DNA from: Lachnospiraceae bacterium
GTDB lineage: Bacteria; Bacillota; Clostridia; Lachnospirales; Lachnospiraceae
Assembly: GCA_017622875.1 (NCBI GenBank)
Contig: JAGAQG010000052.1
Span: forward strand, 1-64,000
DNA: 64,000 bases
Direction: 5' to 3'
The notes beneath the pieces were generated by a model that was not told where the DNA came from, searched no databases, and saw nothing but the letters and a program-made list of their open reading frames with translations. Shown piece after piece: positions 46,348 to 61,423 of the stretch. How positions within the stretch are numbered: position 1 is the stretch's first letter; every line of letters begins with the position of its first letter. Position numbers and translations under genes: made by a program.

Positions 46348-48441
46348 ATGAGTATTACATCAATTTTCCTCAAATTATTAAATATGAGCTTTACCGGAGC
46401 CTGTGCAGCTATCCTCATACTTTTGGTAAGATTCTTATTTAAGAAACTTCCAAAGAAATATATATGTATTTTATGGACAGTGGTACTGATAAGATTGCTT
46501 TGTCCGTTTACGATACCGACGCTTATACCTGATCAGCCGGATATTCGGGAACCAATACCGAGTAATATTTTGGAGGTAGAATATCCGAGTATTTACAGTG
46601 AAATTGAAATTGTTGACAATGCAGTGAATCATGTTCTGAAACAAAACTTTGTATCAGATACACAAATACAATTTAAAAATCCTATGAGTCCATTGGAAAC
46701 CGTGACATTGATTGGGGCAATTTTATGGTGTATAGGAATTGCAGGGATGTTTTTCTATACGATTAAAAATGTTCTGGAGTTCCAGAAATGGATCAAGGAA
46801 TCTGTACCAGACAAATCATTGGGAGACAGAAATTACCGCTGTGCGGTTTCAACTCCAGTGGTGACGGGATTTGTAAAACCGAAGATTTATCTGCCTTTTG
46901 ATTTAAAGGAGCCTCAGCTGGCACATGTATTAATGCATGAGAAAATGCATATCAAAAGAAGAGATCATTGGCTGAAAATGCTGTTTTACACAGCTGTGAT
47001 TATACATTGGTTCAACCCGGTTGTGTGGCTGGCGTATCGTCTGCTGGAGCGCGACATGGAGATGGCGTGTGATGAAGCGGTGCTTGAAGAGCTTGGGACG
47101 GAGGAAAAGACAAGTTATTGCGAATCATTGCTGAATCTTGCTTCTTCAAAAAATCATCTCGCGGGAAATCCGGTGGCCTTTGGAGAGAGTGATGTGAAGG
47201 TACGTATTAAGAATCTTCTAAATTATAAAAAGCCATATTTATGGATATCGATTGTAGCAGTCATTGTGATTGTTATGGTGGCGATTACGTGTTTGAGCAG
47301 CCCGAAGAGTAATAAAATATGGGAAACAAGCGTTACTGCAGTAGCGGAAGTGAAGTATCCGCTGACAAAAGAGGATGTAGAAGGAGCGTTGAGTCAGGTG
47401 GATTTACCTTGCGTTGTTTCCGAGGAAGAATATAACTCTGAAATCAGAACATCTTTGGATTTAAGAGATGAAGAGGGAAGACTCATTGCGGGAATCGCAA
47501 GCAATGGGGATGGAAATGCTCGTTTTTTAGGAATTACTTTGATTGGTTATTTACAGCAGGGTGAAGCTTCTATATATTTACCGGAAGAAAAATGGGAAGA
47601 TTTGATTGGCTTCGCATCTATTCTTTATGGATTTGAAGATCAAAGCGTGATCTATGAAGATTTTATAAAAAATTTTGAAGAAGACTCCATTATTATGGAG
47701 CTTAACTATACTTCCGAACCATATGCGGGGTATGCAAGAGAGTATGAGTGGCTGAAATCCTATGGGGATGTTTCCTGCAAGATTGAGGTGAGAGAGACAG
47801 AGGAGGGAATAAGAGAAATCGAATCGATTTCATTTTATAATGTTCCTGCATACAGTACGGTAAACAGTGAAATGGCCTGCAGGAATTTCTTCTATTATAT
47901 GTTTACGTCTATTCCGGGGCGTTATGCGTCTTATGAGGAAGCGACCGGCGGAAAATATGGTCCAATCAACAGAGATGAAGCATTTTTAGAATCAGACTAT
48001 AGTGCAGCATATCTGGCCCAGTACAGGGACAGAGCAACAGAAAATTGTCTTCAGACCATGGAGGATTTGGGATATTTTACTTTAGTAGATTATTTGGCTG
48101 CGAAGTCTGATGCTAAAGTGACAGTTTTTGATGCCGCTTTTACGGAAACTGACGAGACGAAAGATGAAAAGTCGCACAAATTATATAATTATACAGTGAC
48201 ATTGAATTGTGAAAAGGATGGTCAGACAGAACAATTTGAGGTAAAAGGTCAGATCGGTGTACAGCTTCAGGTCAATGGATGGAAGGTCTATGATTTCCTC
48301 ATCAGTGATACTGAAACACTTAGCATTTATGTGACAGGGGACAGCGTGTACCGCCAAGGGAATGAACTGCCGGAAGGGCTGACTTTAGGGGCATACAATG
48401 TAGAGAGAAGACAAACGATACGATTGTTTTCTCTCTTTTAG
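46348..48441 (+). CDS. M56 (BlaR1-like) membrane metalloprotease sensor
   Basis: 697 residues, AGGAGG upstream. The N-terminal membrane part has segments at about 10-30 (SFTGACAAILILLVRFLFKK) and 110-135. The zinc protease site is H197-E-K-M-H201, with downstream helix MEMACDEAVLEELG, and a further membrane segment lies near 290-310 (WISIVAVIVIVMVAITCLSS). The outer C-terminal part (about 390 residues) is not a penicillin-binding domain, so the signal is unlikely to be a beta-lactam. Activation should cleave the BlaI partner. The last 12 codons lie inside a terminator stem and the stop abuts the convergent AraC gene. Confidence 0.85.
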   Translation: MSITSIFLKLLNMSFTGACAAILILLVRFLFKKLPKKYICILWTVVLIRLLCPFTIPTLIPDQPDIREPIPSNILEVEYPSIYSEIEIVDNAVNHVLKQNFVSDTQIQFKNPMSPLETVTLIGAILWCIGIAGMFFYTIKNVLEFQKWIKESVPDKSLGDRNYRCAVSTPVVTGFVKPKIYLPFDLKEPQLAHVLMHEKMHIKRRDHWLKMLFYTAVIIHWFNPVVWLAYRLLERDMEMACDEAVLEELGTEEKTSYCESLLNLASSKNHLAGNPVAFGESDVKVRIKNLLNYKKPYLWISIVAVIVIVMVAITCLSSPKSNKIWETSVTAVAEVKYPLTKEDVEGALSQVDLPCVVSEEEYNSEIRTSLDLRDEEGRLIAGIASNGDGNARFLGITLIGYLQQGEASIYLPEEKWEDLIGFASILYGFEDQSVIYEDFIKNFEEDSIIMELNYTSEPYAGYAREYEWLKSYGDVSCKIEVRETEEGIREIESISFYNVPAYSTVNSEMACRNFFYYMFTSIPGRYASYEEATGGKYGPINRDEAFLESDYSAAYLAQYRDRATENCLQTMEDLGYFTLVDYLAAKSDAKVTVFDAAFTETDETKDEKSHKLYNYTVTLNCEKDGQTEQFEVKGQIGVQLQVNGWKVYDFLISDTETLSIYVTGDSVYRQGNELPEGLTLGAYNVERRQTIRLFSLF
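48402..48439. terminator. Terminator overlapping the end of the M56 gene
   Basis: AGAGAGAAGACAA (48402-48414) pairs with TTGTTTTCTCTCT (48424-48436), followed by TTTT. The stem is wholly within the coding sequence. On the minus strand a T-run is lacking, so action is mainly on the plus strand. Confidence 0.78.
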
Positions 48442-49494
48442 TTAATGAATCTGATGTTGTTTGCGATAGTCTTTGGGACTCATTTCGTATTTTTTCGTAA
48501 AAAGTTTATAAAAATGGGTTCTATTGGTAAATCCTAATGTTCCGGCAATTGCAGCAATGGAATCATCTGTAGATACAAGTAATGAAGCAGCCTTTTTTAA
48601 ACAGAATGTCATTCCATAATCAAAAAGACACATCCCCGTGTGATTTTTTACAATTGTGTTCAAATAATTACCGCTGTAATGTAAAGTGCTTTCTAATTGT
48701 GTCCGACTCATACGGCCATTGGTATCTTCAAGAAGATGGCTGATTCGCGAAAAAAGCAGAAAATCGGTGTTTGATGTAAGATTTACAGAAGTAACATAAA
48801 AATTTGTCTCCAGATACTGAAATAATTCGCAAATAAGTCCCTTTATCATATAAGAGACGCCAAGTTTTGGCATAAGCATTGTATTGAGTAATAAATCAGA
48901 AATGCGGTGCAGCTCGTGAATGCTGGTATGGTTTTTGAGAGTCGGAAAAAAATCAAAATAAGTTTTTGATACTTTATGTTCTATATTTGCTCTGAAAAAT
49001 TGAAAGATTGTATTTTCGGATAAAACAGGTTCGCTTTTAAAATAGGTATTTTCATTAGCATGTAAAAGCTCACGGATAAAGTCAATCGAGAGTCCGATAA
49101 ACAGAAGTTTTGCTTCTCCGATAAATTTTTCTGCGTGAATGATGTTGCGATTGATCAGACAGCAGGTCCCAGCACGATAAATATATTCCTTATCTTCAAT
49201 TTTCTGAATCACTTCCCCTTCCAGTACAATTAGTAACTCAAAATAATCATGCTGATGAGGGGTTCTTGCATTAAATGCTTCAAAAGTCTCATCAATTTCC
49301 ATAGTTGTACAATAAGTTTCTGTTGGAGAAACCATTAGAATATTAGAAAAATCTTCAGAAGAAAGCCCCCTGCAATACTCTAAAGTAAGCTGTATCGGGG
49401 CTAAAATACCATAATATGAGTTTACGGAACTGTTATAATTGTGAACTTCCAAAATATGATTGACAGTGTGAGAACTAGCTGTTTTCGTGGACAA
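48442..49494 (-). CDS. AraC-family regulator of the adjacent sugar locus
   Basis: 350 residues, minus strand, TTG start supported by GGAGGT 7 bases upstream. An N-terminal cupin-like sensing domain (HQHDYFELLIVLEGEVIQKI, then EYIYRAGTCCLINRNIIHAE) precedes two helix-turn-helix motifs at the C-terminus (GNYLNTIVKNHTGMCLFDYG; IAAIAGTLGFTNRTHFYKLF, then TKKYEMSPKDYRKQ). It is divergent from the transporter and beta-galactosidase genes and so probably activates them in response to a sugar. Confidence 0.88.
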   Translation of the reverse strand: MSTKTASSHTVNHILEVHNYNSSVNSYYGILAPIQLTLEYCRGLSSEDFSNILMVSPTETYCTTMEIDETFEAFNARTPHQHDYFELLIVLEGEVIQKIEDKEYIYRAGTCCLINRNIIHAEKFIGEAKLLFIGLSIDFIRELLHANENTYFKSEPVLSENTIFQFFRANIEHKVSKTYFDFFPTLKNHTSIHELHRISDLLLNTMLMPKLGVSYMIKGLICELFQYLETNFYVTSVNLTSNTDFLLFSRISHLLEDTNGRMSRTQLESTLHYSGNYLNTIVKNHTGMCLFDYGMTFCLKKAASLLVSTDDSIAAIAGTLGFTNRTHFYKLFTKKYEMSPKDYRKQHQIH

Positions 49495-49564
49495 ATTAGA
49501 TACCTCCGTCTGTGCTGATTATAATGATAGTAACACATTCACGAATATGATACAAATAGAAGTT

Positions 49565-49593
49565 TTGGACAAACATCGATGACATTGTTATAT
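49565..49593 (+). promoter_or_regulatory. Probable promoter of the GPH transporter-GH2 operon
   Basis: TTGGAC (49565-49570), 17 bases, TTATAT (49588-49593). The weak -10 fits a promoter needing an activator, such as the divergent AraC protein. A palindrome TTATCGATAA lies just downstream at about 49617. Confidence 0.45.
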
Positions 49594-49670
49594 AGGGAAG
49601 AACTTGCTAAAATTTGATTATCGATAACCGGGTTATGTACGAAAAACAAAAGAGTGAGAGGTATGTTTCC

Positions 49671-51047
49671 ATGAATGAAAAGAAATATTTAAAATGGTAT
49701 CACAAATTAGCTTATGGAGCGGGTGATCTTGCATCGAACTGCAGCTATGGTTTAGTTTCTACATTTATTTTAATTTATCTGACTAATACGATGGGGATGA
49801 ACAGTGCGATCATTGGTACTTTAATGCTTGTATCAAAAATGTTAGACGGGATAACAGACGTTATTTTTGGTACACTGATTGATCATACAAAGTCAAAGCT
49901 TGGGAAAGCTCGTCCTTGGATGCTATACGGACAGCTTGGTGTATCTGCCTGCTTGTTTTTGGTATTTGCAATTCCATCAGGCTTAAGCAGTACCATGCAA
50001 TATGTCTATTTCTTTGTGTTTTACACTGCATTGAATGCAATTTTCTATACTGCAAATGGTATTGCGTATTCTACATTGACAGCACTTATTACAAAAAATC
50101 CAAATGAAAGAGTTCAGCTTGGATCTATCAGATTTATGTTTGCGGTCGTAACAAATATTGTTATGGGTTATGCAGTTATGGGCGGCGTTGAAAAATTTGG
50201 CGGAGGTGCAGCAGGTTGGAGAATGATAGCGCTTATCTGTGCACTTATCGGTCTGGTTGTAAATACTATCAGTTGTCTTGCAGTAAAGGAAGTTCCTGAG
50301 GATGAAAACGAAGTAGAGAAAATAGTAGTTGAAAAAGCTCCGGAAGAAAAACTCGGATTTGTTAAGACAGCAAAATTGTTGTTCCAGAATAAGTACTATA
50401 TTATGATTCTTATAATTTACATTGTTTACTATATTATGAGCGGACTTACACAAGGTGCAGGTGTTTATTTTATGACCTATGTAATGGGGGATGCATCCTT
50501 ACTTGGAAGCTTTTCTATGATGAAAATGTTTCCTGTAATCATTGCTCTGGCATTTACTCCAGCATTGGTTAAAAAATGTGGCAGTATGCAAAAAGTTAAT
50601 TTCTGGGGCTATTTCTTGAACTGTGTATTCAGTGTGTTTTATCTGGTTGCAGCTATGAAGAAAAATGTTCCGATGATGTTGCTGTTTTTGTTCATTAAAG
50701 GTGTATTTGCTGGTACATTAAGCGGTACATTGAATGCATTGATTGCCGAAATCAGTGCCTATACATATAAAACAAAAAATGTGCATATGGACGGTACAAT
50801 GTATAGCTGTTCTTCACTTGGTGTCAAAGTCGGTGGTGGCATCGGTACAGCAGCAGTTGGCTGGTTGCTGGCGCTGTCAGGATTCGATGGTACAGCAGCG
50901 GTTCAAAGTTCAGGTGCGGTGAATATGATTTTCGCAATGTATGTTACAATCCCCCTTGCAATCGGTGTGATTATTACAGTTTTATTAGGTATGCTTGATG
51001 TGGAAAAGAAAAATAAAGAACTGGATGCTTTAAAGCAGAAAGCGTGA
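49671..51047 (+). CDS. GPH-family sugar:cation symporter (MFS type)
   Basis: 458 residues from ATG 49671; the longer frame from 49614 lacks a ribosome site. About 12 membrane segments. Family signatures: KLAYGAGDLASNCSYGLVST at the N-terminus and KMLDGITDVIFGTLIDHTKS, then KLGKARPWMLYG, the conserved loop of GPH (MelB/LacS-like) carriers. No C-terminal IIA domain as in LacS. It likely imports a galactoside for the GH2 enzyme encoded 4 bases downstream. Confidence 0.9.
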   Translation: MNEKKYLKWYHKLAYGAGDLASNCSYGLVSTFILIYLTNTMGMNSAIIGTLMLVSKMLDGITDVIFGTLIDHTKSKLGKARPWMLYGQLGVSACLFLVFAIPSGLSSTMQYVYFFVFYTALNAIFYTANGIAYSTLTALITKNPNERVQLGSIRFMFAVVTNIVMGYAVMGGVEKFGGGAAGWRMIALICALIGLVVNTISCLAVKEVPEDENEVEKIVVEKAPEEKLGFVKTAKLLFQNKYYIMILIIYIVYYIMSGLTQGAGVYFMTYVMGDASLLGSFSMMKMFPVIIALAFTPALVKKCGSMQKVNFWGYFLNCVFSVFYLVAAMKKNVPMMLLFLFIKGVFAGTLSGTLNALIAEISAYTYKTKNVHMDGTMYSCSSLGVKVGGGIGTAAVGWLLALSGFDGTAAVQSSGAVNMIFAMYVTIPLAIGVIITVLLGMLDVEKKNKELDALKQKA

Positions 51048-51051
51048 TTGG

Positions 51052-53523
51052 ATGATAAAATACAAATTTAATGACAACTGGGAATTTGAAAAGGCGGATA
51101 GTAATTCCCGACTTGCAGCATTTTTAGGTAAAACGCAGAAAACGATTGTCCACTTACCGCATGATGCCATGATTCATGAGGAGAGGACACCTGATACAGC
51201 TAACGGAGCCCAGACAGGATTTTATCCAGGTGGAGAATATATTTACTTAAAAATGCTGGATGTGCCGGAAGAATGGAAGAACAAAAAAGTTCTATTGGAA
51301 TTTGAAGGCGTGTATCAGATTGCCTATGTATACATCAACGGTGCATTGGTAAAGAAGAATGTCTACGGATATTCAAACTTTTATATACATTTGAATCCGT
51401 GGTTGAATTTTGGAAAGAGTAATGTCATCAAGGTGGTTGCTGATAACAGTCAGGAGCCAAACAGCCGCTGGTATACAGGAAGCGGGATTTATAGAAATGT
51501 GAATCTGCTGGTAGGAGAAAAGATTCATTTAAAAGAAGAGGGAATCAGGATCACAACCCTTTCTGCAAACAAAAATTCAGCTGTGGTGGAAATTGAGACT
51601 CAGATTGAAAACATTGAAAAAGAAAAGAAAACAGTTACACAGATTGTACAACTGCTGTATGAAGGACAGATTGTTAATTCGGATGTGCAGACAGTTGTAA
51701 TGTATCCTGAGACGACAGAAAAGGCCCGTCATAGGATATGTGTTTTAAATCCAGCGCTTTGGGACTGTGAGCATCCGGAATTGTATCAATGCAGAGTCAT
51801 TTTAAAGAGTGGAAATGAAATATTTGAAGAATATGAAGAAAATTTTGGGATTCGAACACTGATGCTTGATGTAGTACATGGACTTCAAATAAATGGAAAA
51901 GAAGTCAAATTAAGAGGTGCATGTATTCATCATGATAATGGAATTTTGGGGGCAGCAACTTTTGAAAAAGCAGAAGAGCGTCGCTGCAGACAGTTAAAGG
52001 AAGCAGGATTTAACAGTATCCGAAGTTCCCATCATCCAATCAGTAAAGCGATGCTGGATGCCTGCGATCAGTATGGAATATTAGTGATGGACGAAGTGAC
52101 CGATGTGTGGACACTTCGTAAAAATCAATATGATTTTAGTGCACATTTTGAAGAATGCTGGGAAGAAGTTGTAGAAAGAATGGTTGCAAAAGACTACAAT
52201 CATCCTTCTGTGATCATGTATTCTGTGGGAAATGAAATTTCGGAGGCAGGTTCGGAAAATGGTTCGAGAATCAATCGTCATATGTGCAACAAGATTCATG
52301 CATTGGATGCTACACGTTATACGACCAACGGTCTAAATGGTCTGATGGCTGCTGGCTATCGCCTAAAAGATATTATGACGGAAATTGCAATGAAATTTGG
52401 TGGATTGGGAAATGGCAGCGGTGGAAACAGTGATGGAAGTAATGGATTTAACAGTTTCATGAGTCTGATGACAGGAGAAAGAGGAGAATATTTTGCGAAA
52501 CATCCATTGCTGACAGAAGCATTGGAAGGATGTTCTTCCTCTTGTGATGTGATAGGGCTGAATTATCTGACTGGCAGACATGAGCTGGAGCATGAGCTTC
52601 ATCCGAATAAGACGGTAGTTGGTACGGAAACCTATCCGGCAGAGATTGTAAGACTATGGAGTATTGTAAAAAGAAATCCTCACGTTTTAGGGGACTTTAC
52701 ATGGGCAGGATATGATTATCTTGGAGAAGCTGGCTGTGGAATCTTTCATTATGATGGCAACGCGAACTTTACTAGTGTTTATCCTGAAAGAACGGCTTAT
52801 ATTGGAGATATTGATTTAATTGGATATCGAAGACCAATTAGCTATTTGCGTGAAATTGTATATGGGTTGAGAAAAGAACCTTATATTGCGGTAAACAGAA
52901 TTGATAAATATGGTAAACCATGTTCAAAGACTCCATGGATGTATAAAGATAATATCGAGAGCTGGACGTGGAATGGATGTGAAGGTAAGGTTACAAATGT
53001 AGATGTATACTCAAATGCGGAAGAAGTAGAACTGTTTCTCAATAACTGTTCTTTGGGCAGAAAGGATGTTGGAGAAGAAAATGATTTTACTGCAAGCTAC
53101 GAAGTGGTTTATGAGCCGGGAACGCTATATGCAGTCAGTTATGTTGGAGAAAAAACTACAGGTACATTTGCAATTTCTACCGCGAACGAAGAGGTGGAAT
53201 TGAGTATTAGCGCAGATAAGACAACGTTAAAGGCAGATGGAGAGGATTTGGCGTTCCTTACGGTTAAATTGGTTGACAGAGATGGCGTAGAGAATTTGTG
53301 GACTGGAAAGAAAGTACACGTGACTGTCGAAGGTGCAGGAAGATTAGAAGCATTTGGAAATGCAAACCCTTCTTCTGTTGATAATTATAATACCAATACA
53401 TATGACACTTACGAAGGCTATGTAATGGCGGTTGTTCGTGCAGGAATTACGAAAGGAAAAATGAGTGTCACCTTCAGCGCAGAAGGCTGTAAAGAAAAAT
53501 GTATAGAAATTAATGTTGTTTAG
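51052..53523 (+). CDS. Glycoside hydrolase family 2 beta-galactosidase-like
   Basis: 823 residues, no signal peptide, so cytosolic. Order: sugar-binding domain (about 1-160, including NSRWYTGSGIYRNVNLLV), immunoglobulin-like domain, TIM barrel with RGACIHHDNGILGAATFEKA and FNSIRSSHHPISKAMLDACD, acid/base Glu 395 in VGNEIS, nucleophile Glu 526 in VGTETYP. C-terminal DUF4982-like domain (VDVYSNAEEVELFLNNCSLG) and a bacterial Ig-like fold follow. It probably hydrolyses beta-galactosides brought in by the symporter; beta-glucuronidase or other GH2 specificity cannot be excluded. Confidence 0.88.
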   Translation: MIKYKFNDNWEFEKADSNSRLAAFLGKTQKTIVHLPHDAMIHEERTPDTANGAQTGFYPGGEYIYLKMLDVPEEWKNKKVLLEFEGVYQIAYVYINGALVKKNVYGYSNFYIHLNPWLNFGKSNVIKVVADNSQEPNSRWYTGSGIYRNVNLLVGEKIHLKEEGIRITTLSANKNSAVVEIETQIENIEKEKKTVTQIVQLLYEGQIVNSDVQTVVMYPETTEKARHRICVLNPALWDCEHPELYQCRVILKSGNEIFEEYEENFGIRTLMLDVVHGLQINGKEVKLRGACIHHDNGILGAATFEKAEERRCRQLKEAGFNSIRSSHHPISKAMLDACDQYGILVMDEVTDVWTLRKNQYDFSAHFEECWEEVVERMVAKDYNHPSVIMYSVGNEISEAGSENGSRINRHMCNKIHALDATRYTTNGLNGLMAAGYRLKDIMTEIAMKFGGLGNGSGGNSDGSNGFNSFMSLMTGERGEYFAKHPLLTEALEGCSSSCDVIGLNYLTGRHELEHELHPNKTVVGTETYPAEIVRLWSIVKRNPHVLGDFTWAGYDYLGEAGCGIFHYDGNANFTSVYPERTAYIGDIDLIGYRRPISYLREIVYGLRKEPYIAVNRIDKYGKPCSKTPWMYKDNIESWTWNGCEGKVTNVDVYSNAEEVELFLNNCSLGRKDVGEENDFTASYEVVYEPGTLYAVSYVGEKTTGTFAISTANEEVELSISADKTTLKADGEDLAFLTVKLVDRDGVENLWTGKKVHVTVEGAGRLEAFGNANPSSVDNYNTNTYDTYEGYVMAVVRAGITKGKMSVTFSAEGCKEKCIEINVV

Positions 53524-53538
53524 AATTTAACTTCCCTA

Positions 53539-53573
53539 AGAAGGTCAGGAATGAAAGTGCTTCCTGGCCTTCT
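53539..53573 (+). terminator. Intrinsic terminator after the GH2 gene
   Basis: AGAAGGTCAGGAA (53539-53551) pairs with TTCCTGGCCTTCT (53561-53573) in a 13-pair stem with one G-T pair. The T-run after it is poor and may have been altered by the intron-like insertion. Confidence 0.68.
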
Positions 53574-53580
53574 TGTATGG

Positions 53581-53681
53581 TGGGCCTAGCGGCGCACGTC
53601 AACTATCGAAAACGCCTAATATGCGAACCGTATGTTCGGTGGTATGAGAGGACGGGAATTAATCACTCCCTCCTACTCGAT
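53581..53681 (+). mobile_element. 3'-end remnant of a group II intron
   Basis: About 100 bases look like the terminal structured part of a bacterial group II intron. A short hairpin GAACCG / CGGT-type lies at 53624-53641. It is followed by GGTATGAGAGGACGGG and a stem pairing GGACGGGA with TCCCTCC, ending CTACTCGAT at 53681, a common intron 3' end. The reverse transcriptase and 5' domains are missing. It lies immediately after an intrinsic terminator, as group IIC introns prefer, and its end touches the stop codon of the next gene. The family call is from memory of the end sequence. Confidence 0.45.
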
Positions 53682-54008
53682 CTATATTTCCCATAATTCA
53701 AGTGTTTTTAAAAGCTTTCTTTTTTTATCAGGAGTTAATTTTGAAATTTTATTCATTAACTCGTTATCTAAAGCGGTAGTCTGATATTCCGGTTCCAACT
53801 GTCCGACAAGAGAATCAAGAGAAAGACCGGTCAATTTTGCATAGTAAATAAGTATACGCAAAGACATGGCAGTTCTGTTGTTTTCTACATTGCTGATATA
53901 ACCAGGAGTAACATTTAATGCTTCTGCAACTTGATTCTGTGTCAGTCCGTTCTGAATTCTTAATTCTTTGATGTGTTCACCGTAACTTTCTTTAAATGTA
54001 TAGTCCAT
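53682..54008 (-). CDS. XRE-type helix-turn-helix regulator
   Basis: 108 residues on the minus strand from ATG 54008 (AAAGG about 10 bases upstream); the longer frame from 54077 has no ribosome site. XRE domain: SYGEHIKELRIQNGLTQNQV, AEALNVTPGYISNVENNRTA (8-62), then a helical tail (SKLTPDKKRKLLKTLELWEI). It is divergent from the repeat RNA locus, with about 115 very AT-rich bases between, so it may control that locus. No toxin is encoded beside it on its own strand. Confidence 0.85.
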   Translation of the reverse strand: MDYTFKESYGEHIKELRIQNGLTQNQVAEALNVTPGYISNVENNRTAMSLRILIYYAKLTGLSLDSLVGQLEPEYQTTALDNELMNKISKLTPDKKRKLLKTLELWEI

Positions 54009-54122
54009 AGGATGTTGCCTTTCGGGATATTCTTTTGATAATAAAAATATACTATAAATAACACTTGAAATAAACATACTAATTATATATAATATATTTA
54101 ATAAATAAAAACATATTTCAAA

Positions 54123-54151
54123 TTGACATTAAATGGTGCTTTGCATATAAT
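54123..54151 (+). promoter_or_regulatory. Consensus promoter of the repeat RNA
   Basis: TTGACA (54123-54128), 17 bases, TATAAT (54146-54151), a perfect match. Transcription should start near 54158. It has no coding frame before the terminator at 54305-54347. Confidence 0.87.
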
Positions 54152-54157
54152 AATATT

Positions 54158-54347
54158 AGATGAAAAGCGTGCTTTTCAAGTGGGCTAACACTAAAATCTG
54201 ATATGCTTGTCAATCTGATGATTGACCGTTGGCGGACAACACTAAAATCCGATATGTTTGCCAGTCTATACTGGTCGTTGACAGACAACACTAAAATTAG
54301 CCGCAAAAAGAGAGTATGTAGTGCAATGGTACTATTACTCTCTTTTT
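54158..54347 (+). ncRNA. Short RNA of three structured repeats, candidate type III antitoxin
   Basis: Three units end in the identical AACACTAAAAT (54187-54197, 54238-54248, 54287-54297), 51 and 49 bases apart, the last two followed or preceded by CYGATATGYTTG. Each unit has its own hairpin, with different bases but preserved pairing: GAAAAGC/GCTTTTC (54162-54177), GTCAATC/GATTGAC (54209-54226), CCAGT/ACTGG (54261-54274). A second small stem GTTG-N5-CAAC recurs in units two and three (54228-54240, 54277-54289). No coding frame fits. A consensus promoter precedes it, an intrinsic terminator follows, and a nuclease-like gene comes next. This is the layout of type III toxin-antitoxin loci (ToxIN, CptIN). 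The function is inferred. Confidence 0.68.
54305..54347 (+). terminator. Intrinsic terminator between repeat RNA and nuclease gene
   Basis: AAAAAGAGAGTA (54305-54316) pairs with TACTCTCTTTTT (54336-54347); inner TAGT (54319-54322) pairs with ACTA (54331-54334). In type III systems such a terminator keeps antitoxin RNA in excess over toxin mRNA. Confidence 0.93.
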
Positions 54348-54370
54348 AAATTTGTAAAGGAATGAAAAGC

Positions 54371-55027
54371 ATGAAATATACCAAAGAAGAGGCGCGCAGA
54401 GTCGTTCTTAACTGTGCAAAGTTATATCAACAAAAGTTATTGAACAAGAGGTTTATGATAATATATCGAGAACGTCTGGATAATAGAATTCGTTATATAG
54501 AAGTGGTATTTCTGGAGAGAAACTATCAACATTTAACGGGATTGGAAATGGTTGATTCGCAAGGAAAAAAATTACATAATCAATCTGTGAACTTTTACAG
54601 AAAATGTATTGAAAATAAACTAGGTTTAGATGAATTTGAGTTTAAATCATCTGGTACAACGCAATTAAAACTTATGGCATTGCCAGCATTAATGCATATG
54701 ACTAAAATAACTAAGATTACTGGTGATTACAATAATGTACGCCCATATCTTTTGGTTGATAAAGTAATAGGTGGCATTAATTTTTGTCTTGGACTAAGCA
54801 AAGAAAAAGATTATTTTGTTCCGTCATCCGCATTGCTGGAAAATATAAAGAATTTGACGGATTCACCTTCGCAAGTTCTTGCGATTTTAGAAAAAAGCGA
54901 TAAAAGTAAGAAATATTCAATTGTAAAACATGTTGCGAAAGGTTTGAATTTAAAGAAGATTTTGCTACCAGCTGAAATTAAAGAAATGATTAATTTGGAT
55001 AATTATATATACAAGAAGAATAAGTAA
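54371..55027 (+). CDS. PBECR4-like nuclease domain protein, candidate RNA-regulated toxin
   Basis: 218 residues from ATG 54371, 10 bases after AAAGG (54356-54360); an ATG at 54362 leaves no spacing. The core FMIIYRERLDNRIRYIEVVF, LERNYQHLTGLEMVDSQGKK, FYRKCIENKLGLDEFEFK and TTQLKLMALPALMHMTKI resembles PBECR4, one of the phage Barnase-EndoU-ColicinE5/D-RelE-like nuclease families. It also has basic stretches suited to RNA binding. It stands alone, between the repeat RNA terminator and a second terminator. In type III systems the toxin is an endoribonuclease with a related fold that cuts its own repeat RNA. The toxin role is inferred; a phage-derived orphan is the alternative. Confidence 0.68.
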   Translation: MKYTKEEARRVVLNCAKLYQQKLLNKRFMIIYRERLDNRIRYIEVVFLERNYQHLTGLEMVDSQGKKLHNQSVNFYRKCIENKLGLDEFEFKSSGTTQLKLMALPALMHMTKITKITGDYNNVRPYLLVDKVIGGINFCLGLSKEKDYFVPSSALLENIKNLTDSPSQVLAILEKSDKSKKYSIVKHVAKGLNLKKILLPAEIKEMINLDNYIYKKNK

Positions 55028-55037
55028 AAATATTTCA

Positions 55038-55067
55038 CAGGTGTCAAGAAAAAATACTTGACACCTG
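55038..55067 (+). terminator. Terminator after the nuclease gene
   Basis: CAGGTGTCAAG (55038-55048) pairs with CTTGACACCTG (55057-55067), an 11-pair perfect stem, followed by a short T-rich stretch. Confidence 0.75.
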
Positions 55068-55086
55068 CATTTCCTTGTAGTAATAT
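55058..55086 (+). promoter_or_regulatory. Promoter of the ylxM-ffh operon, nested in the terminator
   Basis: TTGACA (55058-55063), 17 bases, TAATAT (55081-55086). The -35 lies inside the 3' arm of the preceding terminator stem, leaving no free sequence between the accessory block and the SRP operon. Confidence 0.6.
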
Positions 55087-55119
55087 ACCCTAGGATGCTG
55101 AAAAAAGTAGGTGAAAAGC

Positions 55120-55461
55120 ATGGATGAAATCTTAAAACAGGCGCTTCTCTACGATTTCTACGGAGAGCTTCTGACAGCCCATCAGAAAGAAATTTATGAA
55201 GAAGTTGTTTTGGATGACTGCAGTTTAAGCGAAGTTGCTGAAGCCCACGGAATCAGCCGACAAGGCGTTCATGACTTAATTAAAAGATGTCAGAAGATGC
55301 TGGAAGGTTATGAAGAAAAACTGAAGCTGGTCGAAAAGTTCTGTACGATCAAAGAAAAGATCAAGCAGATTGAACAATTGACAAATGAGGTTTCCGAAGA
55401 ACCGGAAAAGCAGCTGCAGGATATCAAAAAATATGCAGCAGAGATTTTAGAGGAATTATAA
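55120..55461 (+). CDS. ylxM: YlxM family SRP-associated DNA-binding-like protein
   Basis: 113 residues from ATG 55120 (AGGTG 6 bases upstream); a GTG at 55111 lies within that site. Helix-turn-helix: LLYDFYGELLTAHQKEIYEE, then LSEVAEAHGISRQGVHDLIK, and a C-terminal coiled-coil-like segment. In streptococci YlxM binds the SRP and modulates FtsY activity. It lies 3 bases before ffh. Confidence 0.94.
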   Translation: MDEILKQALLYDFYGELLTAHQKEIYEEVVLDDCSLSEVAEAHGISRQGVHDLIKRCQKMLEGYEEKLKLVEKFCTIKEKIKQIEQLTNEVSEEPEKQLQDIKKYAAEILEEL

Positions 55462-55464
55462 TAG

Positions 55465-56823
55465 ATGGCATTTGATAGTTTATCAGAAAAATTACAAAAC
55501 GTATTTAAGAATTTACGCAGTAAAGGACGTCTGACAGAAGAGGATGTAAAAGCAGCCTTAAAAGAAGTAAAGCTTGCGCTTTTGGAAGCCGATGTTAACT
55601 TCAAAGTCGTAAAACAGTTCACAAAAGCCGTTCAGGAAAGAGCTGTTGGAGAAGAAGTATTAAACAGCTTAACACCGGGCCAGATGGTTATCAAGATCGT
55701 AAATGAAGAGCTTGTCAAAATGATGGGTTCTGAAACGACAGAATTGAAGCTTCGACCATCCAATGAAGTGACAGTCATTATGATGATGGGTCTTCAGGGT
55801 GCCGGTAAAACAACCACAGCAGCAAAGCTTGCAGGAAAGTTAAAAGCCAAAAGTAATAAATGGAAACCGCTCCTGGTTGCATGTGATGTTTACCGTCCCG
55901 CTGCCATCAAGCAGTTACAGGTAAACGGTGAAAAACAGGGCGTAGATGTGTTCTCCATGGGAGACGGACATAATCCAGTAAACATTGCGAAAGCAGCTTA
56001 TGAGCACGCAAAGAACAAAGGTTACTCGGTTCTGATCTTAGATACCGCAGGTCGACTCCAGATTGATGAAAACATGATGGAAGAGCTGCAGAACATTAAG
56101 AAAGAATTAAACGTTGACCAGAGTATTCTTGTTGTAGACGGTATGACCGGTCAGGAAGCTGTGAATGTGGCAAATACATTTGAAGAAAAGGTCGGTATCG
56201 ACGGTGTGATCCTTACAAAATTAGATGGTGATACACGAGGCGGTGCGGCGCTCTCCATTCGAGCAGTGACTGGAAAACCGATTCTCTACATTGGTATGGG
56301 TGAGAAGCTCTCAGATTTAGAGCAGTTCTATCCGGACCGAATGGCTTCCCGTATCCTGGGTATGGGCGATGTCCTTACATTGATTGAAAAAGCAGCAGAA
56401 GAAGTGGATCAGGAAAAATCCAAACAGATGCTGGATAATATGAAAAAGAACCAGTTCGGATTCGACGATTACTTGGAAAGTATGAATCAGATGAAGAAAC
56501 TGGGGGGAATCTCAAGCGTTCTCAGCATGATGCCGGGAATGGGCGGAGCGCAGATGAAGCAGATCGAAGATGCCATGGATGAAAAGAAGATGGCCAGAAT
56601 CGAAGCAATCATCCTTTCCATGACTCCGCAGGAGAGAAGAAATCCTGATGTTATCAATCCATCTAGAAAGCGAAGAATCGCAAAGGGTGCCGGGGTTGAT
56701 ATCAGCGAAGTAAACAGACTGGTGAAACAGTTTGAACAGAGCAGAAAGCTCATGAAACAGATGCCTGGAATGATGGGCGGTAAACGTGGTAAAAGAGGAA
56801 GATTTGGAAAACTTCCTTTTTAA
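55465..56823 (+). CDS. ffh: Signal recognition particle protein Ffh
   Basis: 452 residues. N domain, then G domain with MGLQGAGKTTTAAKLAGKL (G1), CDVYRPAAIKQL, LDTAGRL (G3), LTKLDGDTRGGAALSI (G4), and the Met-rich M domain (LSMMPGMGGAQMKQIEDAMD, ending KQMPGMMGGKRGKRG) that binds 4.5S RNA and signal sequences. It works with FtsY (36394) to target membrane proteins. Confidence 0.98.
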   Translation: MAFDSLSEKLQNVFKNLRSKGRLTEEDVKAALKEVKLALLEADVNFKVVKQFTKAVQERAVGEEVLNSLTPGQMVIKIVNEELVKMMGSETTELKLRPSNEVTVIMMMGLQGAGKTTTAAKLAGKLKAKSNKWKPLLVACDVYRPAAIKQLQVNGEKQGVDVFSMGDGHNPVNIAKAAYEHAKNKGYSVLILDTAGRLQIDENMMEELQNIKKELNVDQSILVVDGMTGQEAVNVANTFEEKVGIDGVILTKLDGDTRGGAALSIRAVTGKPILYIGMGEKLSDLEQFYPDRMASRILGMGDVLTLIEKAAEEVDQEKSKQMLDNMKKNQFGFDDYLESMNQMKKLGGISSVLSMMPGMGGAQMKQIEDAMDEKKMARIEAIILSMTPQERRNPDVINPSRKRRIAKGAGVDISEVNRLVKQFEQSRKLMKQMPGMMGGKRGKRGRFGKLPF

Positions 56824-56876
56824 CATAAAGTATAAACATTAAATTTTATTGAAAGAAAAATTATGAGGTGAACAAA

Positions 56877-57122
56877 ATGGCAGTTAAGATCAGATTAAGA
56901 AGAATGGGACAGAAAAAAGCTCCTTTTTACAGAATTATTGTAGCAGATTCCAGATCTCCAAGAGATGGTAGATTCATCGAAGAAATCGGAACATACAATC
57001 CAAACACAGACCCAAGCACATTCAACGTAGACGAAGAAGCTGCAAAGAGATGGTTAGCAAACGGTGCTCAGCCAACAGAAGTTGTTGGAAAAATCTTCAA
57101 ATTAGCAGGTATTGAAAAATAG
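56877..57122 (+). CDS. rpsP: 30S ribosomal protein S16
   Basis: 81 residues from ATG 56877 (GAGGTG upstream); the ATG at 56868 is too near that site. [20 protein letters not shown] and [16 protein letters not shown] are diagnostic. It follows ffh as in Bacillus. Confidence 0.98.
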
Positions 57123-57147
57123 TTAGAACCCGCTTGGAGGTGGAGAT

Positions 57148-57378
57148 TTGAAAGAATTAGTTGAAGTAATTGCGAAAGCACTCGTAGAAAATCCAGATGA
57201 GGTTGTTGTTACAGAGACTGAAAAGGAAAGAGTAATCGTGGTAGAACTTCGTGTGGCTCCATCTGATATGGGAAAAGTTATCGGAAAGTCAGGAAGAATT
57301 GCGAAAGCAATCCGTTCAGTAGTAAAAGCAGCATCTTCTAACTACGATAAGAAGGTTGTTGTAGACATTATGCAGTAA
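57148..57378 (+). CDS. khpA: KH-domain RNA-binding protein KhpA
   Basis: 76 residues, TTG start behind GGAGGTGGAG. The KH loop is [13 protein letters not shown] (about 50-62). It binds RNA, pairs with KhpB/Jag, and influences cell division and small-RNA function. Its gene lies between rpsP and rimM in many Firmicutes. Confidence 0.95.
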
Positions 57379-57383
57379 TTGAT

Positions 57384-57412
57384 AAGGGGCTTGTGAAAGC
57401 CCCTTGTTTTTT
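57384..57412 (+). terminator. Intrinsic terminator between khpA and rimM
   Basis: AAGGGGCTT (57384-57392) pairs with AAGCCCCTT (57397-57405), followed by GTTTTTT. It lies in the middle of the operon, so rimM-trmD need readthrough or a separate promoter. Confidence 0.88.
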
Positions 57413-57434
57413 CATTAAATCAATAGGAGAAATA

Positions 57435-57944
57435 ATGGAACAGTTATTAAGAGTTGGTGTCATTTCCTCAACCCATGGGGTCAGAGGGGAAGTAAAGGTC
57501 TATCCGACTACGGATGACGCAAATCGATTTAAAAAGCTGAAAAAAGTTGTCCTTGATACAGGCAGAGAATACATTGATCTTGAGATTTCCGGTGTGAAAT
57601 TCTTCAAAAATCAGGTCATCTTAAAGTTCAAGGGCATTGATAATATCAATGATATTGAAAAATATAAAGGCAAAGATCTTCTGGTACACAGAGAAGATGC
57701 TGTGAAGCTGGAAGAAAATGAAAATTATGTGGCAGACTTAATTGATTTAAAGGTTGTCACAGATGAAGGCCAGGTGCTTGGCTGCCTGACAGAAGTTATG
57801 GAGACAGGTGCCAATGATGTGTATGTGGTAGAAACAGAAGATGGAAAAGAGCTTTTGCTTCCAGCCATCAGAGACTGTATTTTAGATGTAGATCTTGATG
57901 AAGAAGTCATGACAGTACACATTTTGCCAGGACTTTTTGACTAG
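57435..57944 (+). CDS. rimM: 16S rRNA processing protein RimM
   Basis: 169 residues from ATG 57435 (AGGAGA upstream). The longer frame from 57393 runs through the terminator stem and is rejected. [20 protein letters not shown] is the N-terminal signature; the C-terminal PRC-barrel part ends [20 protein letters not shown]. It helps mature the 30S head and is followed after 12 bases by trmD. Confidence 0.96.
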
Positions 57945-57956
57945 GAAGGAAATGCG

Positions 57957-58697
57957 ATGAATTTTTATATTTTGACGTTATTTCCGGAAATGGTCATGCA
58001 GGGCTTAAATACAAGTATCATCGGTCGTGCGGTGAAAAATGGTCTTCTTAATATAGAAGCGATCAATATCCGTGATTTTGCTCAGAACAAACATGGTCAG
58101 GTGGATGATTACACTTATGGCGGCGGTGCAGGGTTGCTTATGCAGGCAGCGCCAATTTACCGGGCTTACGAACATATTTGTGAGAAAATCGGTAAAAAAC
58201 CGCGTGTGATTTATCTGACACCACAGGGTGATGTGTTCAATCAAGGGTATGCGGAAGAATTTTCCAAAGAGGAAGATTTGATTTTTCTCTGCGGACATTA
58301 TGAAGGAATTGATGAACGTGTTCTGGAAGAAATCGTGACAGATTATATGTCTATTGGCGATTATGTGCTGACGGGAGGGGAACTGCCTTCCATGGTCATG
58401 ATTGATGCCATCAGCCGACTGGTTCCGGGGGTTTTGAATAAACAGGCATCCCACGAGATTGAATCCTTTCATGACAATCTGCTGGAATATCCGCAGTACA
58501 CAAGACCGGAAGAGTGGCATGGAAAGAAGGTGCCGGACGTACTATTATCCGGACATCATGTCAATATTGAGAAGTGGAGAAGAGAGCAGTCTCTAAAGAG
58601 AACTTTAGAGCGCAGGCCGGATCTTTTGGAGAATGCAAATCTTACAAAACAAGATAAAAAATACTTGCAATCCTTAAAGGAAAGTGATAATATATAA
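57957..58697 (+). CDS. trmD: tRNA (guanine-N1)-methyltransferase TrmD
   Basis: 246 residues. The knotted SAM fold is marked by YLTPQGDVFNQGYAEEF, FLCGHYEGIDERV and SIGDYVLTGGELPSM. It methylates G37 of tRNAs reading CNN codons and prevents frameshifting. The end of the gene is followed by the structured rplS leader. Confidence 0.97.
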   Translation: MNFYILTLFPEMVMQGLNTSIIGRAVKNGLLNIEAINIRDFAQNKHGQVDDYTYGGGAGLLMQAAPIYRAYEHICEKIGKKPRVIYLTPQGDVFNQGYAEEFSKEEDLIFLCGHYEGIDERVLEEIVTDYMSIGDYVLTGGELPSMVMIDAISRLVPGVLNKQASHEIESFHDNLLEYPQYTRPEEWHGKKVPDVLLSGHHVNIEKWRREQSLKRTLERRPDLLENANLTKQDKKYLQSLKESDNI

Positions 58698-58826
58698 TAC
58701 GTTGTGAGTATAAGAAGAGATGGTCCTCTGTTACAAGTGTTCGCGGCAACAATGTGCGAACCGGTTTGTGAAATGCAAACTATAGTGAAGTATTAAGAAC
58801 ATCCGGAAATAAGGAGGAAACACACA
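58698..58826 (+). promoter_or_regulatory. Structured rplS leader
   Basis: In the 129 bases before rplS, GTTCGC (58739-58744) pairs with GCGAAC (58756-58761) and GTTTG (58764-58768) with CAAAC (58776-58780), giving two adjacent hairpins. This is the position of the known L19 leader, a site for feedback by the ribosomal protein; membership in that RNA family was not tested. AAGGAGGAAA (58811-58820) is the ribosome site. Confidence 0.5.
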
Positions 58827-59174
58827 ATGAATAGCATTATTAAAAACATCGAAGCAGCTCAGGTAAAAGCTGAAGTTCCAGTATTCCATGTAGGTGATAC
58901 AGTTAAGGTTTACGGAAAAATCAAAGAAGGTAACCGCGAACGTGTTCAGGTATTTGAAGGCGTTGTATTAAAAAGACAGGGTGGCGGAGCTAGAGAAACT
59001 TTCACAGTTAGAAAAACATCTAACGGTGTTGGTGTAGAAAAAACTTGGCCATTACATTCTCCAAACGTAGAAAAAATTGAAGTTGTTCGTTACGGTAAAG
59101 TAAGACGTGCGAAACTCAACTACTTAAGAGATCGCGTAGGTAAAGCTGCTAAGGTAAAAGAATTAGTAAGATAA
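58827..59174 (+). CDS. rplS: 50S ribosomal protein L19
   Basis: 115 residues, family length. [40 protein letters not shown] and [18 protein letters not shown] are typical. Located at the 30S-50S interface. It follows trmD as usual and ends at its own terminator. Confidence 0.98.
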
Positions 59175-59182
59175 TGATTTCT

Positions 59183-59220
59183 GGGGACAAATGCATACGC
59201 ATCTGTCCCCGTTTTCGTTT
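59183..59220 (+). terminator. Intrinsic terminator after rplS
   Basis: GGGGACA (59183-59189) pairs with TGTCCCC (59204-59210), with ATGC/GCAT pairing inside, then GTTTTCGTTT. Confidence 0.9.
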
Positions 59221-59247
59221 CAGGGTACGAGTGTTTGAGGAGTAAAG

Positions 59248-59820
59248 ATGGCAGGCTTAACATTCCGAAAAAGAAAGAAAAGAATTAATTACAATATTAT
59301 TAAAGAGGGCTTTGTCTGGTTGGCAGAGCTTGCGTTGGCATTTTTTATCGCTTGTCTTTTGGTCGTAAATTTTGGCGTAATGACAAGCAATGTTGGACAG
59401 TCCATGGAACCGACACTGGCCAGCGGAGACAGAGTATTGACAAATCGACTGATCTATAAGTTGACAGATCCGAAACGCGGCGATCTGGTGGTATTTAAAC
59501 CGAATGGAAATGAAAAGTCTCATTATTATATTAAGCGTGTTGTGGGACTGCCGGGGGAAACGATTCAGATTATAGATGGATTTATTTATATTGATGGCGA
59601 AGTCCTCGTAGAAGACATCAAATTTGACAAGATGGAATATGCGGGAATCGCAGAAGATCCAATCAAGCTCGGTAATGACGAGTTTTTCGTTCTCGGGGAT
59701 AACAGAAATGCCAGTGAAGACAGCAGAAATGCGGAAATTGGCATGATTAAGAAACAGGATATTGAGGCCCAGGCGTGGTTCAATGCGACGATGGGTGACA
59801 ATTTTGGAAAGATAGAGTAA
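59248..59820 (+). CDS. lepB: Signal peptidase I (first copy)
   Basis: 190 residues. One N-terminal membrane segment (about 22-44, LAELALAFFIACLLVVNFGV), catalytic Ser 52 in VGQSMEPTL, catalytic Lys 96 in YYIKRVVGLPGE, and FVLGDNRNASEDSRN. It removes signal peptides from exported proteins. It starts 73 bases after rplS and 12 bases before rbgA, so the peptidase gene is built into the ribosome-maturation operon. Confidence 0.95.
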   Translation: MAGLTFRKRKKRINYNIIKEGFVWLAELALAFFIACLLVVNFGVMTSNVGQSMEPTLASGDRVLTNRLIYKLTDPKRGDLVVFKPNGNEKSHYYIKRVVGLPGETIQIIDGFIYIDGEVLVEDIKFDKMEYAGIAEDPIKLGNDEFFVLGDNRNASEDSRNAEIGMIKKQDIEAQAWFNATMGDNFGKIE

Positions 59821-59832
59821 GGAGGAAGAAAC

Positions 59833-60684
59833 ATGCAGGTTCAGTGGTATCCTGGTCATATGACCAAAGCAAAACGTATGATGCAGGAAAACATCAAATT
59901 AATTGACTTAGTAATCGAGCTGGTGGATGCGAGAGCACCATTATCCAGCAAAAATCCGGACATTGATGAACTTGGCAAGAACAAATTCCGATTGATTTTG
60001 TTAAATAAGGCAGACCTTGCAAGTGAAAAGGGCAATGCGATGTGGACAAAATATTTCGAAGAAAAGGGATATTTTGTTGTGAAGATCAATTCCAGAAGCG
60101 GTGCGGGGATGAAACAGATTTCTGCGACGATTATGGAAGCTTGTAAAGAAAAGATTGAGCGTGACAGAAAACGCGGTATTTTGAACAGACCGATTCGTGC
60201 CATGGTCGTTGGAATTCCAAATGTAGGCAAATCTACATTTATTAACAGCTTTGCAGGAAGAGCAGCGGCAAAAACCGGAAATAAGCCGGGTGTTACAAAG
60301 GGGGCACAGTGGATTCGCTTAAATAAACAGGTGGAACTTCTTGATACACCGGGAATTTTATGGCCGAAATTCGAAGACCAGGCAGTGGGTATAAAATTGG
60401 CGATTCTTGGTTCTGTTAATGATGAGATTCTGAACATTGATGAACTGAGTGTGGAACTGATTAAGCTTTTGAATGAATATTTCCCGGAAGTGATCAGTGA
60501 ACGTTATCAGATTGGGAAGCATGAAGAACCTGTGAAAGTACTGGAAGAAATTGCGAGAGTGCGTTCCTGCCTGTTAAAGGGTAACGAACTGGATATTTCC
60601 AAGGCTGCGAGCATTTTGATGGAAGATTTCAGAAGCGGACGACTGGGCAAATTAACGCTTGAATTCCCACAGGTAAGTGAGTAA
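59833..60684 (+). CDS. rbgA: Ribosome biogenesis GTPase RbgA (YlqF)
   Basis: 283 residues. GTPase motifs are circularly permuted: G4 LLNKADLA comes before G1 GIPNVGKSTFIN and G3 LLDTPGILWP, as in the YlqF/RbgA family. N-terminal MQVQWYPGHMTKAKRMMQEN is diagnostic. It is needed for late 50S assembly (L16 incorporation). AAGGAGGAAG lies upstream. It is flanked by two signal peptidase genes. Confidence 0.96.
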   Translation: MQVQWYPGHMTKAKRMMQENIKLIDLVIELVDARAPLSSKNPDIDELGKNKFRLILLNKADLASEKGNAMWTKYFEEKGYFVVKINSRSGAGMKQISATIMEACKEKIERDRKRGILNRPIRAMVVGIPNVGKSTFINSFAGRAAAKTGNKPGVTKGAQWIRLNKQVELLDTPGILWPKFEDQAVGIKLAILGSVNDEILNIDELSVELIKLLNEYFPEVISERYQIGKHEEPVKVLEEIARVRSCLLKGNELDISKAASILMEDFRSGRLGKLTLEFPQVSE

Positions 60685-60727
60685 TATAATAATATTGTAA
60701 GATAAGAACTTAACTTGGGAGAAACTT

Positions 60728-61414
60728 ATGTTTAAGAAATTTAGTACAAAGAAAAAAGATCGTGAAAACGATTTGGAATTAGATGAAGTAGAATTTTTGG
60801 ACTTAGATGAGATGGAAGATCTGGAAGTCATAGATTTGGATATTGTTGACCTTGATAAAGAAAAAACAGAGGAAAAAGAGTATTCTTTGAAAAGAGAAAT
60901 TATCAGTACGGTATTGTATTTACTTGCAGTTGTTGCGCTTACATTCTTATTTGTGCAGTTTGTGGGTCAAAGAACACACGTGAATGGGGATTCCATGAAT
61001 GTGACACTGGAAGATGGAGATAACCTGATCGTAGATAAATTAAGCTATAGATTTACTGATCCGGAACGTTTTGATATCATCGTTTTCCCGTATAAATATC
61101 AGGAAAAGACCTATTATATTAAGCGTATCATTGGTATGCCGGGTGAAACTGTGCAGATTATAGACGGTATGGTTTATATTGATGGTGAAATGCTGGATGA
61201 AACCTACGGAAAAGAAGTTATGCAGTATTCAGGTGTTGCATCTGATCCGATTACCCTTGGGGAAGATGAATATTTTGTCCTTGGGGATAACAGAAACAAC
61301 AGTTCTGACAGCCGAGATCCGAGTGTAGGAAACATTCAGAAAGACCAGATTATTGGTAAAGCATTTATCAGAATTTGGCCATTGAACAAATTTGGAATTT
61401 TAAAACATCAATAA
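60728..61414 (+). CDS. lepB: Signal peptidase I (second copy, acidic N-terminal extension)
   Basis: 228 residues. An acidic cytosolic tail of about 50 residues (LELDEVEFLDLDEMEDLEVI) precedes one membrane segment (about 57-80). Catalytic Ser 89 in VNGDSMNVTL, Lys 132 in YYIKRIIGMPGE, and VLGDNRNNSSDSRDPS follow. It is similar but not identical to the copy at 59248 (shared QIIDG.VYIDGE block), so the two arose by duplication around rbgA and may have different substrates. It ends 9 bases before rnhB. Confidence 0.93.
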   Translation: MFKKFSTKKKDRENDLELDEVEFLDLDEMEDLEVIDLDIVDLDKEKTEEKEYSLKREIISTVLYLLAVVALTFLFVQFVGQRTHVNGDSMNVTLEDGDNLIVDKLSYRFTDPERFDIIVFPYKYQEKTYYIKRIIGMPGETVQIIDGMVYIDGEMLDETYGKEVMQYSGVASDPITLGEDEYFVLGDNRNNSSDSRDPSVGNIQKDQIIGKAFIRIWPLNKFGILKHQ

Positions 61415-61423
61415 GGAAATGCT

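Follow-up and report, generated by a model that had tools for sequence, protein, structure and literature searches.

The window (the whole stretch of DNA that was analysed, 64,000 nucleotides long) comes from a genome of a Lachnospiraceae bacterium, and carries on its forward strand a folded non-coding RNA followed by a gene for a PBECR4 protein. The features of the locus are as follows.

54123..54151, + strand: promoter TTGACA-17-TATAAT, 12/12 consensus matches, drives the RNA
54158..54347, + strand: non-coding RNA of about 190 nt, putative antitoxin, its start deduced from the promoter position; fold z -5.07; covariation in 21 relatives
54162..54177, + strand: 5' hairpin P0, from the energy fold; relatives have other stems at the same place
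54180..54200, + strand: unit 1, with S1a GTG/CAC, loop1 GGCTAA (54183-54188), an A-rich linker and tail1 TCTG (54197-54200)
54209..54226, + strand: variable hairpin 2 (hp2), GTCAATC/GATTGAC; two-sided changes at 7/7 pairs, 71% of cells paired
54228..54251, + strand: unit 2, with S1b GTTG/CAAC, loop2 CGGA (54233-54236) and tail2 TCCG (54248-54251)
54261..54274, + strand: variable hairpin 3 (hp3), CCAGT/ACTGG; two-sided changes at 4/4 counted pairs, 63% of cells paired
54277..54302, + strand: unit 3, with S1c GTTG/CAAC, loop3 CAGA (54282-54285) and tail3 TTAGCC (54297-54302)
54307..54347, + strand: terminator hairpin at the RNA/gene boundary, -19.0 kcal/mol, followed by a T run (own scan)
54371..55027, + strand: PBECR4 predicted endoribonuclease, putative toxin, 218 aa (PF18813, E 3.1e-35)
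55038..55067, + strand: terminator-like hairpin 3' of the PBECR4 gene (stock terminator scan)

The perfect promoter claimed in an earlier note on this DNA was recovered, and among the 14 promoter-like sites found in this AT-rich region (against 7.2 in shuffles) it was the best. The terminator ahead of the gene, described as strong, stood in our own scan, but a stock terminator scan did not flag 54307-54347 and listed, for both strands, only the hairpin 3' of the PBECR4 gene.

BLASTN comparison of window positions 48001-62000 with 11 relatives carrying the same type of RNA (class A) confined the similarity to 54116-55034, i.e. to a module of about 0.9 kb. For seven of these relatives the similarity began at 54116 or 54122, for the remaining four at 54139-54162. 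An HTH gene (53682-54077) was rejected as a part of the system, since the 11 relatives, with flanks of about 0.1-3 kb, showed no DNA similarity outside the module. The gene next to the module, which we take to be ylxM, was present in 18 of 20 other genomes searched; among 12 same-family genomes (G001-G012) PBECR4 was found in two (G004 and G007), on contigs different from those of ylxM. The stretch 53575-53680 looks similar to the 3' terminus of group II introns, and had no Rfam match.

The gene described in the earlier note as nuclease-like was assigned by Pfam search to PBECR4 (PF18813, 122.7 bits against a cut-off of 27), with no other Pfam family at E up to 1. PF18813 was also matched by all 23 proteins of set A1 and all 17 of set A2. 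The proteins stand alone (178-288 aa), and none of the 40 scanned showed a further confident Pfam domain; one drum-side member (see below) also matched PBECR2. The two halves of the family were joined by profile comparison (probability 96, E 4.6e-9). Across 49 sequences the conserved columns were H54 (49/49), K/R100 (48/49), D/E130 (42/49) and S/T153 (48/49), in which the window protein has H54, K100, D130 and S153. A plan of a His and a C-terminal Ser/Thr has been proposed for PBECR domains (PMC5512222, accessible text), and the conservation of H54 and S/T153 is in keeping with this predicted plan. A sequence search of the PDB returned nothing for the window protein at E up to 10, two further sequence searches gave no solved relative (best E 0.024 and 0.29), and PADLOC and NCBIfam contained no match to it.

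A PF18813 search of 299 Lachnospiraceae genomes returned 72 rows in 56 genomes, with 49 matches over the cut-off; the rows were merged into 69 PBECR4 genes, and the upstream DNA was read for all of them. In a sample of the phylum, four of 398 genomes matched (the own genome, another Lachnospiraceae genome and two from outside the family), and in a control set of 14 genomes Lactococcus lactis did. Eight close relatives lay in genome contigs of Roseburia, Blautia, Butyrivibrio, Lachnoclostridium or Lachnospiraceae. PBECR4 together with such RNAs was found on phage and plasmid records, and the module itself in two phage records. Viral contigs yielded no close relative with the window protein, L014 or L020 as query, and one relative with L084. 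No match was obtained in E. coli by megablast, on plasmids queried with the window protein and L084, or in phages queried with L023 and L084. The own genome also carries a diverged paralogue of the module on contig C17 (L002, 1172-2082; protein 33% identical). Its RNA is class-A-like and longer, with a rearranged middle (37.8 bits with class-A model R1), and a TPP riboswitch lies behind its gene.

Three related units sharing an identical sequence had been reported for the RNA, and AACACTAAAAT was indeed located at 54187, 54238 and 54287. In class A the units are spaced 49-51 nt, and each consists of an S1 hairpin (GTG/CAC or GTTG/CAAC), then an A-rich strand, then a tail. The small stem GTTG-N5-CAAC, said to be kept, occurs in units 2 and 3, whereas unit 1 has GTG-N6-CAC. 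The hairpins GTCAATC/GATTGAC and CCAGT/ACTGG were both found in the sequence; the third one listed, GAAAAGC/GCTTTTC, is present too, but it precedes unit 1 and forms the stem UGAAAAG/CUUUUCA with a 4-nt loop. Unit 2 is an H-type pseudoknot in which loop2 pairs with tail2 across ACTAAAA, and in unit 3 loop3 pairs with tail1 and tail3 with loop1. The fold energy of the window RNA was better than that of 200/200 shuffles. Energy folding of the single sequence, a method unable to represent pseudoknots, gave the loop1-tail3 pairing and hp2, and paired the unit-2 stem otherwise. The window RNA matched no Rfam family, and drum (RF02958) gave no match to it at E up to 5. Reading the RNA as coding sequence was rejected on account of single-base length differences among the relatives.

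The loop-tail pairing is the strongest signal at the locus, and was absent from the first description. Class-A tails pair with the loops in nested order, and in 21 sequences (of the 24 aligned) 96-100% of cells were paired: 123/126 for loop1-tail3, 84/84 for tail1-loop3 and 81/84 for loop2-tail2. Two-sided changes were seen at 14/14 of these crossing pairs, which is evidence from covariation, not from chemistry. In 17 of the 21 rows loop2/tail2 read CGGA/TCCG, GGAG/CTCC, CAGG/CCTG, CAGA/TCTG, TTGG/CCAA or CGAG/CTCG, and in three they were one letter off pairing; variants of loop1/tail3 include GGCTAA/TTAGCC, GGTTGA/TCAACC, GACTGG/CCAGTC and GCTTGA/TCAAGC.

Over all 768 cells the pairing was 89.7%, against 79.7% in shuffles that ignore the kinship of the rows, and none of 500 such shuffles reached the observed pairing, the covariation score (0.337 against 0.157) or the number of two-sided changes, while three of the 500 reached the number of further pair types. 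When the partners were slid by 1-3 columns, pairing fell from 89.7% to 27-47%. In the 21 relatives two-sided changes preserve the structure to an extent beyond chance. The 71% pairing in hp2 reflects rows that fall out of register in the MAFFT alignment. Two other schemes were rejected, as their pairing was below that of the nested one: a ring (loop2-tail1 73/84 cells, loop3-tail2 55/84) and purely local pairing (loop3-tail3 58/84, loop1-tail1 52/84). The scheme was kept, with different bases, in distant copies from Erysipelothrix phage phi1605 (L111) and Enterococcus phage IME_EF3 (L112, a partial, unverified record), the two that were read of three matching phage records, Enterococcus phage Efs 1-1-1 being left out. 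As a separate observation, a match to the RatA RNA antitoxin (967-1052 of L112, 85.1 bits) lies near the PBECR4 locus of phage IME_EF3.

A second class of RNA ahead of PBECR4 genes was the Rfam drum RNA (RF02958), detected by a low-threshold scan at 12 of 19 loci (53.7-105 bits, cut-off 43). Drum had 30 matches in the 299 genomes, one of them below the cut-off; 23 lay 14-142 nt upstream of the stretch matched by PBECR4 and on the same strand, and of the remaining seven one ends at a contig edge. Drum also preceded PBECR4 on plasmids of Streptococcus suis (46.4 bits) and Enterococcus faecalis (50.4 bits); of the two matching genomes outside Lachnospiraceae, one showed this order as well (52.3 bits). 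The own genome has a drum RNA with a terminator-like hairpin on contig C44 (L059, 17537-17644, 69.7 bits), behind which tblastn found no PBECR4 gene.

Class C, known from five loci in the 299 genomes and one viral contig, consists of two tandem H-type pseudoknots of 32-33 nt. The search pattern fixed three letters per side of the first stem; in the 12 units the fourth pair of this stem fitted in 12/12, and the second stem had 7/7 pairs in ten and 6/7 in two. Classes D, E and F and five single cases make up 14 loci, with a terminator in 12 of them (own scan). Their leaders had no Rfam family at E 0.1, and the Rfam matches in L090 and L103 fall outside the leaders.

The RNA class follows the protein clade. 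On a tree of 53 proteins (the 50 open genes described below plus L111, L113 and L117, with L112 and L118 left out) the classes required six changes in total, which is the least possible, compared with 27.2 when shuffled (0/200 as low), although a number of single rows sit on long branches whose placement is unsure. Classes A, drum, C and F needed one change each (support 92/81, 92/95, 100/99 and 100/99, respectively), and a lumped class of all others needed three.

A PBECR4 gene was counted as open if it was at least 175 aa long with no stop in the match, which applied to 44 of the 69. An RNA leader was present at all 44: the covariance models called 30 (12 class A and 18 drum, with L089 under the drum cut-off and L093 right at it), the pattern five (class C), and reading nine, of which eight have a terminator. 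Among broken, short or sub-threshold genes a leader was found at 17 of 25, compared with 44/44 (p 1.3e-4). When L091 and L097, which look frameshifted near the start, were counted as broken, p was 2.7e-4, and when the sub-threshold L108 was also counted as intact without RNA, p was 3.6e-3; the rows are related in all three comparisons, and the p values inexact. Homologues lacking the upstream RNA, for which the earlier note had asked one to look, amounted to eight of the 69 genes, and all were fragments or below the family cut-off. In one fixed scan a terminator lay just upstream of 45 of 50 open PBECR4 genes (the 44 and six close relatives), compared with 12 of 87 neighbour genes (p 2e-19, inexact for related rows); the five missed were L008, L031, L036, L089 and L097.

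RNAs were also found where the gene had decayed or was absent. The class-A covariance model, with the window included, gave 34 matches in 29 of the 299 genomes, of which 18 stand ahead of PBECR4, two weak ones look false, and 14 have no PBECR4 behind. According to tblastn, three of these 14 orphans keep a piece of the gene and 11 show none. At L141 the only tblastn match was the neighbouring locus L036, and at L145 decay seems to have affected the 5' half of the RNA. Six drum orphans, one with a 42-aa piece of the toxin gene, bring the loci with RNA and no open toxin gene to 20. Variation in the number of units was noted among class-A RNAs: L138 has four units, with a toxin piece behind it that begins past the conserved His, and L034, L140, L142, L143 and L144 have two units beside shortened or lost toxin genes.

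Taken together, we consider it probable that the locus is a toxin-antitoxin module of type III design, composed of an RNA antitoxin and a putative PBECR4 endoribonuclease, which would be a toxin of the BECR type. This was in essence the proposal of the earlier note, and it agrees with the conserved module, the pseudoknotted repeat RNA and the terminator before the gene, as well as with a predicted nuclease with conserved His and Ser/Thr, an RNA class tied to the protein clade, and an RNA that outlasts its toxin. The loss pattern is consistent with a protein that is toxic alone and an RNA that neutralises it by direct binding. The number of class-A units may shrink after loss of the toxin.

In the proposed mechanism, one promoter would transcribe a short, heavily folded RNA. 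Most transcripts would end at the terminator and a minority would read through into the PBECR4 gene, and the RNA would therefore exceed the toxin. The RNA would fold into pseudoknot-like units with A-rich strands, within which it may be cut, and could bind the PBECR4 endoribonuclease and mask its active site. If the supply of RNA failed, through phage transcription shut-off or loss of the module, free toxin would cut RNA and growth would stop, which might limit the phage or penalise loss of the module. Units 1 and 3 look domain-swapped, the loop of one pairing with the tail of the other, in which case all three units would function as a single closed molecule, or would still be held together once cut.

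The position of the RNA between promoter and gene, and the terminator hairpin in which it ends, would also suit a cis-acting leader that responds to a signal by adjusting read-through into the nuclease gene, with no protein binding. We regard this as improbable, however, as the RNA persists at the 20 loci where the gene has been lost or broken, and at least three unrelated RNA folds, each tied to a protein clade, would be odd for a sensor; repeat units would also suit protein binding better. It seems just as improbable that the RNA activates or guides the nuclease in a ribonucleoprotein effector that needs RNA to act, for example as a phage sensor. The defence enzyme DRT2 does bind a neighbouring pseudoknotted ncRNA (PMC12039810, accessible text), and the occurrence of PBECR4 with such RNAs on phage and plasmid records would fit, but retention of an RNA without its protein would be more typical of an antitoxin than of an activator, and no conserved unpaired guide-like stretch was seen by eye in alignment A3.

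Slightly less doubtful, though still unlikely, is a phage-derived PBECR effector directed against other elements, with the RNA conferring self-immunity on the carrier and not belonging to an addiction or abortive system. The orphan RNAs would then be immunity genes, and PBECR domains have been described in phage polyvalent proteins (PMC5512222, accessible text). Against this, the proteins found here stand alone, at 178-288 aa, and the neutralisation of a nuclease by RNA, the core of the idea, is shared with the toxin-antitoxin reading.

Under the toxin-antitoxin reading the results also suggest, with somewhat better than even confidence, that PBECR4 nucleases are a large toxin family with several unrelated RNA partners (class A, drum, class C and no fewer than three others), drum being an antitoxin and class A a new design, in which nested pairing of loops with tails of other units closes a set of three pseudoknots. 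The role for drum is proposed because the family pairs with several unrelated folded RNAs, drum included. This would predict a function for an orphan Rfam family and for solo PBECR4 nucleases, and would add a toxin group to the RNA-antitoxin systems. Having several RNA classes on one protein tree also makes it possible to study how toxins switch antitoxins. As PBECR4 is common in Lachnospiraceae (56 of 299 genomes) and modules occur on phage and plasmid records, such systems may matter for phage defence and for the upkeep of elements in the gut. No published account of a PBECR4-RNA pairing was found in a literature search that was thin on subscription papers.

Among known systems, the phage polyvalent PBECR domains belong to the same predicted nuclease group with the His and C-terminal Ser/Thr plan (PMC5512222), but here the protein is solo and lies behind an RNA gene; the term 'noncoding RNA' is absent from the accessible text of that paper. 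Drum is the RNA of the other large clade of the PBECR4 family, while the window RNA is not drum. AbiF, whose family we take to be Abi_2/HEPN, provides another comparison. In Clostridioides difficile, AbiF is neutralised by an upstream structured ncRNA, RCd22, and this pair likewise joins a non-ToxN protein to an RNA whose motif was first listed computationally, although both the protein family and the RNA motif differ from those described here (PMC12373285, accessible text).

With ToxIN, AbiQ, CptIN and TenpIN the locus shares a pseudoknot-forming repeat RNA, a terminator and an endoribonuclease gene (predicted here), and with CptI an A-rich loop strand (PMC5086642, accessible text). The class-C repeats (32-33 nt) are nearly as long as those of ToxI and antiQ (34-36 nt; PMC5086642), and the tandem pseudoknots of this class are very ToxI-like. 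The window protein, in contrast, is a PBECR4 protein without ToxN, CptN or TenpN homology by sequence, and was therefore not filed under ToxIN, CptIN or TenpIN. The class-A RNA differs from those of the known type III systems in the 49-51 nt spacing of its units, its extra variable hairpins and its pairing between units.
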